Positions 45,755 to 49,991 of a stretch of DNA of 64,000 nucleotides are shown here, in pieces; position 1 is the first letter of the stretch, and every line of letters starts with the position of its first letter. Source of the DNA: Bacteroidota bacterium. GTDB lineage: Bacteria > Bacteroidota > Bacteroidia > Chitinophagales > Chitinophagaceae. The stretch is from NCBI GenBank assembly GCA_947456625.1, contig CANGQJ010000004.1, forward strand, positions 124,001-188,000, written 5' to 3'. The position numbers and the translations under genes were made by a program. Below the pieces are notes generated by a model that saw nothing but the letters and a program-made list of their open reading frames with translations, was not told the DNA's origin and searched no databases.

Positions 45755-47044
45755 TTATTGCACCTTGCAAAGCTCGTCCCACCTTGTGGTAAAGCGTTTG
45801 CTGCGCTTTTCGCTGCGCATTTTCCAGTTTTTTTTGGTACCAGTACTACCAAATTTGAGCACATCATTGCGGTAAGCGGCATTCATATTATCAATAACAT
45901 TCATTAGCTTTTTTTTCCTGGTATCGGAGGGTGCTACAAACAGATTGGTTTGCAAAGCGTTATCGGGTACAAAGTCACTTAGTATCACACCTGCTTTTTT
46001 ATAAATTTCTCCTTGCTCAAATATGGTTTTACCAATGGCCACAGCGGCTTTAATAATATCGGGGGTGAGGCTACTTGGATTGTCTAAAAGGGCAAAGCCA
46101 CTTACTTGACTACCTCTATGGTAATGTCCCTCCGCATTGTAGTTAACGGTTGGTTTGCGCAATAAAAAAACCTGTACACATTTTGCAGCCCCATGTTGCC
46201 TTCTTAATTTTTCACAGCAGCGTGTGGCATAAGTTGCAAGGGCTTCCTCCACTTCCTGCCAAGTACTTACATTGCGACCAAACATGCGCGTAGTAGCAAT
46301 CATTTTTTTCTCGGTACGCGGCGCTTGCATGCCATGCGTTTTTAATCCTTTTAATTCTCTAATTAATTTAATACCTGTAATGCCTCCTAAAAATTTTTTA
46401 CCCCAACTTAGGTCTTTCATACTTAATGCAAATGCATTGTTAATACCATACACTTTTAGTTTTTCACTATATTGATAACCAATGCCCCAAACATCTTCGA
46501 TAGGTGTTTTCTGCAATGCAGTTTGTATTTTTTGGGTAGTATCTAAAACCACAACGCAGTTGGTTTCGATTTTATTTTTTTTAGCTAAGCGGTTTGCAAT
46601 TTTACTTAATACTTTATTGGGTGCAGCACCAATAGATACCGAAATACCCGTCCAGGTTTCAATGGTATTTTTTAAGTGAATACAAAAATCATATACATCG
46701 TTGTTTGCAATATGATGCAGGTCTACAAAGGCTTCGTCCACGGAGTACACTTCCACATGACCCGGTGGTAGCAAGGATCGCATGGTTTCCATTACGCGCC
46801 AACTAAGGTCACCGTATAAATGATAATTAGAAGAAAAAGTATGTATCCCAAATTTTTTAATGCGCTCTGCTTCCTGAAAATAGGGGGCCGCCATATTAAT
46901 GCCTAATTTTTTTGCTTCGTCGGAACGAGAAACAATACATCCGTCGTTATTGCTTAAAACAACAATGGGTGCATTTTGTAAATTAGGTGCAAAAAGCCTT
47001 TCGCAGGAACAATAAAAACTATTACAATCAATAATCGCTTGCAC
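45755..47044 (-). CDS. umuC: Y-family DNA polymerase V catalytic subunit
   Basis: IDCNSFYCSCERLF, VVLSNNDGCIVSRS, VYSVDEAFVDL catalytic motif intact; full-length 429 aa. Confidence 0.95.
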   Translation of the reverse strand: MQAIIDCNSFYCSCERLFAPNLQNAPIVVLSNNDGCIVSRSDEAKKLGINMAAPYFQEAERIKKFGIHTFSSNYHLYGDLSWRVMETMRSLLPPGHVEVYSVDEAFVDLHHIANNDVYDFCIHLKNTIETWTGISVSIGAAPNKVLSKIANRLAKKNKIETNCVVVLDTTQKIQTALQKTPIEDVWGIGYQYSEKLKVYGINNAFALSMKDLSWGKKFLGGITGIKLIRELKGLKTHGMQAPRTEKKMIATTRMFGRNVSTWQEVEEALATYATRCCEKLRRQHGAAKCVQVFLLRKPTVNYNAEGHYHRGSQVSGFALLDNPSSLTPDIIKAAVAIGKTIFEQGEIYKKAGVILSDFVPDNALQTNLFVAPSDTRKKKLMNVIDNMNAAYRNDVLKFGSTGTKKNWKMRSEKRSKRFTTRWDELCKVQ

Positions 47045-47069: not shown

Positions 47070-47561
47070 TTATAAACCATGAATTACATAGGTGACCACG
47101 CCCCAGGTTTTGTAATCTTGGAGGTGCTCAATATGTATGGCGCCATACTTTTTATTTTCGGGTAGCAGGGTAATGCTATGTGTTTGCATTTGTAAACGGC
47201 GCACTAAAAATTCACCATTTAAAATAGCTACTACTACTTTGCCTGTTCTGGGAGGTACGCTTCGGTCCACAATTAAAGTGTCCCCAATATGAATGCCGGC
47301 GCCGAGCATGGCGTCGCTATTAACCCTAAAGAAAAAAGTAGCGGGTTTGTTTTGAATAAGTTGCTCGTTTAAGTCAATGCCTCTTTCCATGAAGTCGTCC
47401 GAGGCAGCGCCAAAACCAGTGGCATTGGCTTGTACAATTTGATTGGACTGGTAGTTTTTATTAATTTGTTGGGTGGCGATTCCTTCGCTTGGATCCATAT
47501 CTATATATTCCATAAAACTAAATTTATTAGCAATATTAGCTAAAATATTTAGTATTTTCAT
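47070..47561 (-). CDS. umuD: UmuD-like S24 family protein with substituted catalytic dyad (start may be 47513)
   Basis: MERGIDLNEQLIQNKPATFFFRVNSDAMLGAGIHIGDTLIVDRS...NGEFLVRRLQM...WGVVTYVIHGL aligns by eye to E. coli UmuD; next to umuC. Confidence 0.9.
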   Translation of the reverse strand: MKILNILANIANKFSFMEYIDMDPSEGIATQQINKNYQSNQIVQANATGFGAASDDFMERGIDLNEQLIQNKPATFFFRVNSDAMLGAGIHIGDTLIVDRSVPPRTGKVVVAILNGEFLVRRLQMQTHSITLLPENKKYGAIHIEHLQDYKTWGVVTYVIHGL

Positions 47562-47799: not shown

Positions 47800-49239
47800 A
47801 TGGAAACAATTATAAAACATATAAAAAATTTATATAAGACAGTTCACTCCATGGATTGGGATGAAATCACTAAAATTCCGCAAAGTGGAGGTGATCGTAT
47901 TTATTTTAGAATTGTTCAGGGACAACAGTCTTGGATTGCTACTTATAATACTAATTTAAAGGAAAGTGACACTTTTATTTATTTTGCAAATCATTTTTAT
48001 CAAAAAGGATTACCTGTTCCAAATGTCTTAGCAGTTAGCGCGGATAAGCAATATTATATTCAATCCGATTTGGGTACTATTTCTCTTTTGGATGTTTTGG
48101 AAAAAGAGGGAAAAACAGAACATGTTTTTTTATTATTTCAAAAAAGTTTAAAAGCATTAGCGCAATTACAAATAAAGGGAACGGTAGGACTGGACTATAG
48201 TTATTGCCTTACCTCAAAGGAGTTTGGTAAGCAGTCTATTTTAACTGATCTCTTGTATTATAAATATTATTTTTTAGATGCTTTGCAATATCCATATGAT
48301 AAGCAAGCATTACTTAATGAGTTTGAATTATTAAGTGATCAATTAGCTAGTAAGGAGTTTAATTATTTTTTATTCAGAGATTTTCAAAGCAGAAATATTA
48401 TTGTTAATAATGACGAGGTTTATTTTATAGATTTCCAAGGGGGCATGCAAGGTGGGCTTTCATACGATGTAGCCTCTTTACTTTGGCAGGCTAAAGCGGC
48501 ACTTTCTAATGAATGGAAAGAAAAATTATTGGACTACTATATAAGTGAGGTTCAGCATTTGTTGCCAGGAAAAATGAATGCAGAAAATTTTAAAAAACAA
48601 TACAATGGTTTTGTACTTTTAAGATTATTGCAAGTGCTTGGTGCCTATGGCTTTAGAGGTTTGTTTGAACGTAAAGCACACTTTTTAACCAGCATTCCAT
48701 TGGGTTTAAATAATTTAAAAAGTTTTTTAGCAATTTCTCCGCTAAGCGCCGATACACCAGTATTTGCAAGCATTTTAAACTGGATGGTTTCCGAAGAAGT
48801 AGTTGCAAGGTTTACGCCACCGGTTGCAGGTGAGCAAACGCCTTTAGTGGTTACCATTAATAGCTTTAGTTATAAAAAAGGATTGCCAAAAGATGAAACT
48901 GAAAATGGAGGAGGGTTTATTTTTGACATGCGTGGTATTTTAAATCCAGGAAGATTTGAGGAGTATAAAACATTGGCTGGCATTCATAAACCTGTTCAAG
49001 ATTTTTTAGAGCAACGTACTAAAATGAATACTTTTTTAAATAGTGTTTGGGATTTAATTGATATCACTGTTGAAAATTATTTGGAAAGAGGTTTTGAGTC
49101 CCTACAAATTAATTTTGGTTGTACTGGAGGTCAGCACCGCAGTGTTTACGCAGCCGAGCAAACTGCAAGGCACTTAAGAAATAAGTATAAAGTAAAAGTG
49201 ATAATAGAACATACCAATAAAGACAATTGGCTTAAATAA
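47800..49239 (+). CDS. AmgK-like APH-family sugar kinase fused to a RapZ C-terminal domain
   Basis: N-term: LFRDFQSRNIIV...YFIDFQGGMQGGLSYDVASLL; C-term: INSFSYKKGLPKD...FIFDMRGILNPGRF...KPVQDFLE...INFGCTGGQHRSVYAAEQTARHLR. Confidence 0.88.
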   Translation: METIIKHIKNLYKTVHSMDWDEITKIPQSGGDRIYFRIVQGQQSWIATYNTNLKESDTFIYFANHFYQKGLPVPNVLAVSADKQYYIQSDLGTISLLDVLEKEGKTEHVFLLFQKSLKALAQLQIKGTVGLDYSYCLTSKEFGKQSILTDLLYYKYYFLDALQYPYDKQALLNEFELLSDQLASKEFNYFLFRDFQSRNIIVNNDEVYFIDFQGGMQGGLSYDVASLLWQAKAALSNEWKEKLLDYYISEVQHLLPGKMNAENFKKQYNGFVLLRLLQVLGAYGFRGLFERKAHFLTSIPLGLNNLKSFLAISPLSADTPVFASILNWMVSEEVVARFTPPVAGEQTPLVVTINSFSYKKGLPKDETENGGGFIFDMRGILNPGRFEEYKTLAGIHKPVQDFLEQRTKMNTFLNSVWDLIDITVENYLERGFESLQINFGCTGGQHRSVYAAEQTARHLRNKYKVKVIIEHTNKDNWLK

Positions 49240-49247
49240 ATTAGTTT

Positions 49248-49991
49248 ATGCGCGCAATGATACTCGCAGCAGGTTTGGGCACTAGGTTAAAACCTTTTAC
49301 CGATAAGCATCCTAAAGCACTAGCCATGGTGAATGGCAAATCTCTATTGCAGCGAAATGTAGCCTATTTATTATCCTTTGGTATTACAGAAATTATAGTA
49401 AACGTACATCACTTTGCCGATCAAATTATTAATACCATTCAAGAAAATAAAGGTTGGGGTGCTAGCATTACCATTTCTGATGAAACCGATGAGGTATTAG
49501 AAACAGGTGGTGGATTATTACGGGCTGCAAATTATTTTGCAGGCCAAGAAAAATGGTTGGTGATGAACGCCGATATTTTAACCAATTTGGATTTACATAA
49601 AATGATTGCCGCCGACGAGGCCTATGCGCTAAAAGCCGAAGGGGATTTAGTCGCTACATTGGCTGTGACCAATAGAAGCTCTAGTAGAAATTTAATTTTT
49701 AATGCATCGGGTACATTGTGTGGTTGGAAAAATAATACAACAGGCGAAGAAAAATGGGCCCTGCCTTTAAAAGACAGTAGTACAGCTGTTCCCAAGGCAT
49801 TTAGTGGTATTCAAATTGTGCATCAAAGTTTTTTTGATGATTTAAAATTACAAGGAAAGTTTTCTTTAATAGATGCTTATTTACAATTAGCACAACATTA
49901 TGCCATACACTATTTTGATCACAGTGATGGTATTTTATTAGATGTTGGAAAGCCAGAAAGCTTGGAAAAAGCAGCTACGATTTTTAAATAG
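49248..49991 (+). CDS. Sugar-1-phosphate nucleotidyltransferase (MurU-like)
   Basis: MRAMILAAGLGTRLKPFTDKHPKALAMVNGKSLLQRN, VNVHHFADQI, LETGGGLLRA, NADILTN; 8 bp after the preceding stop. Confidence 0.88.
   Translation: MRAMILAAGLGTRLKPFTDKHPKALAMVNGKSLLQRNVAYLLSFGITEIIVNVHHFADQIINTIQENKGWGASITISDETDEVLETGGGLLRAANYFAGQEKWLVMNADILTNLDLHKMIAADEAYALKAEGDLVATLAVTNRSSSRNLIFNASGTLCGWKNNTTGEEKWALPLKDSSTAVPKAFSGIQIVHQSFFDDLKLQGKFSLIDAYLQLAQHYAIHYFDHSDGILLDVGKPESLEKAATIFK

Follow-up and report, generated by a model that had tools for sequence, protein, structure and literature searches.

An Ala/Arg class of UmuD in Chitinophagaceae that probably serves polymerase V without self-cleavage

The self-cleavage of UmuD is commonly seen as the defining gate by which the mutagenic polymerase V (Pol V) is held inactive until a late stage of SOS induction, and the locus described here raises the question of what a UmuD does when the residues that make the cut are gone. 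It lies in a stretch of 64,000 nucleotides (the window) from a Chitinophagaceae genome (GCA_947456625.1, contig CANGQJ010000004.1, positions 124,001 to 188,000). The original prediction, made from the letters of the DNA, was that a frame at 47070-47561 on the minus strand encodes a UmuD-like protein with a conserved scaffold that cannot cleave itself, and it left three readings side by side: a permanently full-length checkpoint or inhibitory protein, a protein activated in trans, or one working without cleavage. The features on which our argument turns are as follows.

45755 to 47044, minus strand: umuC, a Y-family polymerase gene with SVDEAF and a C-terminal UmuD'-binding tail (DUF4113), from sequence and domain matches
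47070 to 47513, minus strand: likely true coding sequence of the Ala/Arg-type UmuD, 147 amino acids (phmmer to 1umu; Pfam PF00717, E 4.7e-24; start kept in genus-mates; AlphaFold2 core)
47199 to 47201, minus strand: codon CGC, Arg at the catalytic Lys97 position (sequence and alignment)
47310 to 47312, minus strand: codon GCC, Ala at the catalytic Ser60 position (sequence and alignment)
47415 to 47420, minus strand: Thr-Gly at the Cys24-Gly25 scissile-bond position, inside the arm motif ANATGFGAA (sequence, alignment and per-column conservation)
47518 to 47530, no strand assigned: SOS (LexA-like) box CTAA-N5-TTAG, copy 1, just upstream of the umuD start codon
47540 to 47552, no strand assigned: SOS (LexA-like) box CTAA-N5-TTAG, copy 2, an exact motif match

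That the frame encodes a UmuD is confirmed by phmmer against the PDB structure of UmuD' (1umu, E 1.4e-20), in an alignment that passes both catalytic sites without a gap; the Ser60 region takes up 'rvnsdamlgagihigdtlivd' of the window protein, and 'ngeflvrrlqm' falls on 'DGEFTVKKLQL'. With the codons read from the sequence, the predicted changes of Ser60 to Ala and Lys97 to Arg are right, as is that of the scissile Cys24-Gly25 to Thr-Gly, where phmmer against full-length UmuD (8gmt) pairs 'CGFPSPAADY' with 'tgfgaasddf'. The window UmuD thus has Ala and Arg in place of the Ser60-Lys97 dyad of autoproteolytic UmuD, and Thr-Gly in place of a Cys/Ala-Gly scissile bond. Another Ser and Lys at the active site was considered and is ruled out by the gap-free alignments together with the fold match. 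The predicted frame itself is present, but its 5' end was drawn too long: the SOS boxes fall within its first 16 codons. Because these boxes lie inside that N-terminus and relatives begin about 27 codons before the Thr-Gly, the true start is probably the ATG at 47513, giving 147 amino acids; all genus-mates that were read start at the corresponding ATG, and across the class the start is conserved about 27-31 codons upstream of the cleavage site. Within these 147 residues Pfam finds S24 only, and no N-terminal DNA-binding domain of the UmuDAb or LexA-repressor type.

The scaffold is indeed well kept. An AlphaFold2 model built on 55 sequences has a UmuD' core with pLDDT > 90 and finds UmuD' (1ay9 and 1umu) as its top PDB matches, with a TMt of 0.87 to 1ay9, while the arm is disordered or of low confidence; the S24/UmuD' fold is likewise indicated by PF00717 and by NCBIfam PRK10276 (135.4 bits against a cut-off of 110). 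The NCBI family model still labels the protein 'autoproteolytic', so that the loss is hidden by annotation. The distal part of the arm is unusual (MEYIDMDPSEGIATQQINKNYQS) and common to the closest relatives. A distant fold match to the model is SipA of Streptococcus pyogenes (PDB 4n31), which we take to be a signal-peptidase homologue that has lost its catalytic pair, a precedent for an inactive enzyme being retained as a partner; it differs in belonging to the S26 side of the superfamily and in its role in pilus assembly.

The substitutions are the property of a class rather than of one gene. About half of a sample of 150 Chitinophagaceae genomes hold a copy 46-62% identical to the window UmuD (76 rows including its own genome, counted at E 1.3e-37 or better). 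In genome samples of the class (395), order (399) and phylum (299), which overlap one another, matches above 200 bits occur only in Chitinophagaceae; those in other families reach about 147 bits or less, and the UmuDs read from them are mostly canonical (A-G-F-P-S-P, SGxSM, VKR). Among 90 class loci, for which the window's own genus was thinned, residues 60 and 97 are Ala/Arg in 82, Ser/Arg in six and Thr/Arg in one, with one incomplete reading; a motif-based reading of the codons gives one Thr more at residue 60 than this alignment count. Arg97 is therefore conserved in 89 of 89 readable loci and Ala60 in 82 of 89, and Lys at position 97 was never seen in these 89. All four Ala codons are used at residue 60 and all six Arg codons at 97, and the median dN/dS among the window's genus-mates is about 0.04 (60 pairs). 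That the gene is decaying or misread can be put aside as having next to no probability: some solitary copies do look degenerate, but for the UmuC-linked form this explanation is refuted by the low dN/dS and intact SOS boxes, and chance or error is excluded because these substitutions are found again in dozens of genera. The prediction of a conserved UmuD that would be unable to cut itself is thus supported by a fixed Arg97, a nearly fixed Ala60, the loss of the P1 residue and the PSP motif, and strong purifying selection. No report of the class was found in the open-access literature.

Two other origins of the substitutions were considered and rejected. Sequence distance as their cause is ruled out by five plasmid UmuDs (from cyanobacteria, an actinobacterium, Rhodothermus and a Chloroflexota member) that keep Ser and Lys at 45-53% identity; the one on Synechocystis plasmid pSYSM retains the dyad at 53% identity to the window UmuD. 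As to mobile elements, the viral contigs contain no Ala/Arg UmuD, phage and plasmid matches are all below 60% identity, and 86 UmuD frames from viral-contig and plasmid loci retain Ser and Lys.

The columns fixed differently in Ala/Arg and canonical UmuDs are 24, 27, 28, 29, 60, 95 and 97, with 48 and 88 in addition (E. coli numbering), and these are mainly the cleavage apparatus. The P1 residue of the class is Thr in 89% and mainly Asn or Ser in the rest, and PSP after the scissile bond has become GAA, while the Gly-Phe that follows the old bond is invariant. Conservation has at the same time been gained elsewhere: arm columns Y7, G9, K11, Q15, A21 and A23, and several residues between 31 and 37, are variable in canonical UmuD and nearly invariant in the class, and the segment that becomes the UmuD' N-terminus is better conserved here than in canonical UmuD.

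SOS control has been retained. The window contains just two exact copies of CTAA-N5-TTAG, both upstream of umuD, whose promoter thereby carries the box of the non-canonical LexA of Bacteroidetes; the CTAA-N5-TTAG regulon of this repressor, described for Chitinophagaceae, includes umuDC (PMC8565304). The motif precedes 87 of 90 Ala/Arg umuDs, against about 0.7 expected, and it stands before 14 of 19 canonical umuDs in Chitinophagaceae and 7 of 66 in other families. RecA is present in the window genome. A search of that genome for a second umuD found none, the other S24 protein there being a LexA-like repressor (L002), a 268-codon frame with a helix-turn-helix-like N-terminus, GDSM, VYKR and an A-A-G site as read by eye; it has CTAA-N5-TTAG upstream of its own gene and appears from its sequence to match the non-canonical LexA family reported for Bacteroidetes (PMC8565304).

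The partner has been retained as well. As originally described, UmuC is intact, with SVDEAF, and its gene begins 25 bases past umuD; the window umuD thus shows the linkage to a catalytically intact UmuC with a UmuD'-binding tail that is expected of a Pol V accessory subunit. In the UmuC tree the partners of Ala/Arg UmuDs group as a single clade (SH-aLRT 99), and among the columns that set this clade apart are residues 4, 9, 12, 37, 39 and 102, which probably lie by the active site near the cleft that takes the UmuD' N-terminus. Models place that N-terminus in the UmuC cleft (PMC11791011, PMC12926913), and in the published Pol V model this is near the active site (PMC11791011). The branch leading to the window UmuC itself is long, at 0.76, where its nearest relatives have 0.09-0.15.

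An intact UmuC bears on the reading in which the protein is permanently full-length and inhibitory, holding UmuC inactive or slowing replication as E. coli UmuD2C does before cleavage. Uncut UmuD restrains mutagenesis in E. coli (PMC3901139) and the arm is retained here, yet the Ala/Arg protein is the sole UmuD of most genomes that carry it, so that a conserved UmuC would be left without an activating subunit, and in the window genome (90% complete) this UmuC is the only Y-family polymerase found. The closer conservation of the future UmuD' N-terminus also tells against a purely inhibitory role, which we regard as unlikely.

The arm is informative because its state depends on UmuC. Of the 94 class members, a cognate UmuC could be located for 88, next door in most, and every one of these 88 copies has the arm motif ANATGFGAA intact (87 by pattern; L207, with ATGFTAA, by eye). 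The motif has decayed in all six copies whose genomes show no cognate UmuC (G111, G132, G797, G799, G838 and G840), although these are draft genomes and that of G132 is 75% complete, which makes its lack of UmuC uncertain. The association has a Fisher p of 9e-9 when scored by pattern; it was spotted in the data first and counted afterwards, with no prior prediction. Four genera (g1, g6, g10 and g36) hold both states. Because the motif is intact with UmuC and decayed without it, the arm appears to be kept for UmuC and not for cutting. Five solitary umuDs that were read (L377, L378, L379, L380 and L161) have a decayed arm and keep the core, Arg97 and SOS boxes. By eye, they adjoin SOS-type genes, namely radical SAM (COG1533), 2H phosphoesterase and SRAP look-alikes.

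The survival of solitary copies with SOS boxes and without a cognate UmuC speaks for a job independent of UmuC, such as binding RecA or replication proteins, with linkage to UmuC incidental. For the class as a whole this seems very improbable, given a cognate UmuC for all but six members, mostly next door, and an arm that tracks it. A further possibility is processing in trans, in which the arm is taken off after DNA damage by some other protease, be it an intact UmuD, the LexA-like repressor or a housekeeping enzyme, so that cleavage would still regulate the protein. In E. coli, a partner subunit can cut UmuD S60A in trans (PMC5342242), and the invariant Gly-Phe would suit a site that is still cut. 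Against this, the window genome has no other UmuD to do the cutting, and of the roughly 76 Chitinophagaceae genomes sampled that carry the Ala/Arg type, only about five also have an intact Ser/Lys UmuD; the change of P1 from Ala/Cys to Thr/Asn/Ser and of PSP to GAA is unlike S24 sites, and decay of the motif where UmuC is lost is more in keeping with a binding site than with a processing site that stands by itself. Activation by another UmuD, one of the three original readings, is consequently unlikely, and we give processing in trans at large only a small chance.

The evidence favours the remaining reading, working without cleavage, and the window UmuD is probably a cleavage-independent accessory subunit of Pol V that stays uncut, docks its arm to UmuC and is controlled at transcription. 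We propose that the Ser-Lys dyad, the P1 residue and the PSP motif were dismantled in a single ancestor, within Chitinophagaceae or close to it, and that the N-terminal segment round the former cut site was incorporated for good into the functional protein. The uncut dimer would bind UmuC through its rebuilt arm (ANATGFGAA) and globular core, escaping proteolytic processing, and the resulting complex would be active, with the Ala/Arg UmuD doing the job of E. coli UmuD'. The post-translational RecA/UmuD cleavage checkpoint would then be absent, and control would rest with transcription, through the non-canonical LexA-like repressor on CTAA-N5-TTAG boxes, and with the part that RecA plays inside the mutasome. 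In E. coli, UV mutagenesis falls sharply when UmuD is full-length and cannot be cut (S60A; PMC3901139), so that loss of the dyad alone would be expected to inactivate Pol V and the rebuilt arm must presumably compensate. The wider proposition, that Chitinophagaceae as a family operate a Pol V free of the proteolytic checkpoint, with the arm as a permanent dock for UmuC and the solitary copies perhaps serving as UmuC-independent damage-response proteins, seems to us about evenly balanced.

UmuD homologues or counterparts that work without cleavage are already known. Compared with E. coli UmuD and UmuD', the window protein shares the S24 core fold, the umuD-umuC order, SOS control, an N-terminal arm and a UmuC with a UmuD'-binding tail; it differs in lacking Ser60 and Lys97, in having Thr-Gly for Cys-Gly and GAA for PSP, and in the arm of its class, which is of another sequence and highly conserved. 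The nearest precedent is HumD of phage P1 which, like its relatives N15 gp26 and HK140, is a UmuD homologue without self-cleavage whose Ser60 motif is lost (AADSHH in P1), and which complements UmuD' according to the P1 database record. HumD starts at the cleavage site (MGFPSP) and so is armless, and P1, N15 and HK140 keep Lys, whereas the window UmuD still has its arm, some 30 residues long, and carries Arg at Lys97. Lacking the Ser60 motif, HumD (phage P1 87584-87973; L369) could not cut itself even if it were armed. Engineered E. coli UmuD 3A (T14A L17A F18A) is likewise full-length, non-cleavable and UmuD'-like, its arm being no longer packed on the core (PMC5342242), but it is a laboratory mutant with an intact dyad, its arm freed by three changes to Ala. 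On the simplest reading, and by analogy, the Ala/Arg UmuD would have reached a similar state by evolution, uncut and with an arm redesigned for UmuC. YqjX/YolD of Gram-positive Y-family mutasomes is a counterpart of UmuD with no known proteolysis and an N-terminal arm predicted to enter the polymerase (PMC12926913, PMC6511836), but it belongs to an unrelated family with an SH3-like core and is a predicted monomer.

Chitinophagaceae also hold armless and canonical UmuDs, sometimes alongside the Ala/Arg type in one genome. Seven of canonical type (L150, L153, L157, L167, L171, L151 and L169, the last with a possible earlier ATG) start at the old cleavage site, as M-GFPSP, M-AFPSP or M-LFPSP, and L382 is a further locus of this pre-cut form. 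Arg97 is present in all seven, as it is in L382, and Ser is lost in four of the seven, while the 88 canonical-type UmuDs with Ser and Lys are all armed as far as they were read. Supported branches of the UmuC tree force at least four independent origins of the pre-cut form among copies with a UmuC, and loss of the arm goes with loss of Lys in the expected direction in all four independent pairs, a number that cannot reach p 0.05. Eleven further divergent copies have mostly lost the dyad, though several keep the arm, and so in Chitinophagaceae the rule is one-way: no arm, no Lys. Among UmuDs of the canonical type, then, the dyad tracks the need to cut. A further degenerate UmuD-like set, in the GTDB family coded f41 (L265, L266, L270, L272 and L274), has Lys97 replaced by Arg and Ser by Gln, Glu, Ile or Ala, several of them adjoining umuC. 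Another apparent loss of the dyad, outside Chitinophagaceae, is the very short-armed Ala/Arg UmuD (MKRRKNRCTGFPSP) of an order-level relative (L392, genome G697), which has no adjacent umuC.

The cutting switch of E. coli thus seems to have been dispensed with in the Chitinophagaceae class. A widespread lineage that lacks the gate yet conserves the polymerase, the arm and SOS control offers a direct test, set up by nature, of the purpose of cleavage, and since armless, canonical and Ala/Arg UmuDs all occur in Chitinophagaceae, the forms can be compared on a common background.

The gene neighbourhoods vary. At eight loci (L014, L022, L016, L023, L173, L175, L194 and L202) the Ala/Arg umuD is followed by a radical SAM (COG1533-like) gene, while the cognate umuC lies at another site in that genome, in many cases no more than a few kb away, and several of these UmuDs carry a C-terminal extension ending in RIRY or similar. 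Several genera have, by eye, a Y1/REP-type transposase-like or DUF559/Vsr-like gene lying between umuD and umuC (L004, L021, L024, L032, L185 and L199; L011, L107, L108, L110 and L181). In the window, again by eye, the region 47800-49991 beside umuD holds a frame that resembles an aminoglycoside-phosphotransferase-type kinase joined to a C-terminal part like RapZ, and after it a sugar nucleotidyltransferase gene, a pair that recalls AmgK-MurU of muropeptide recycling.
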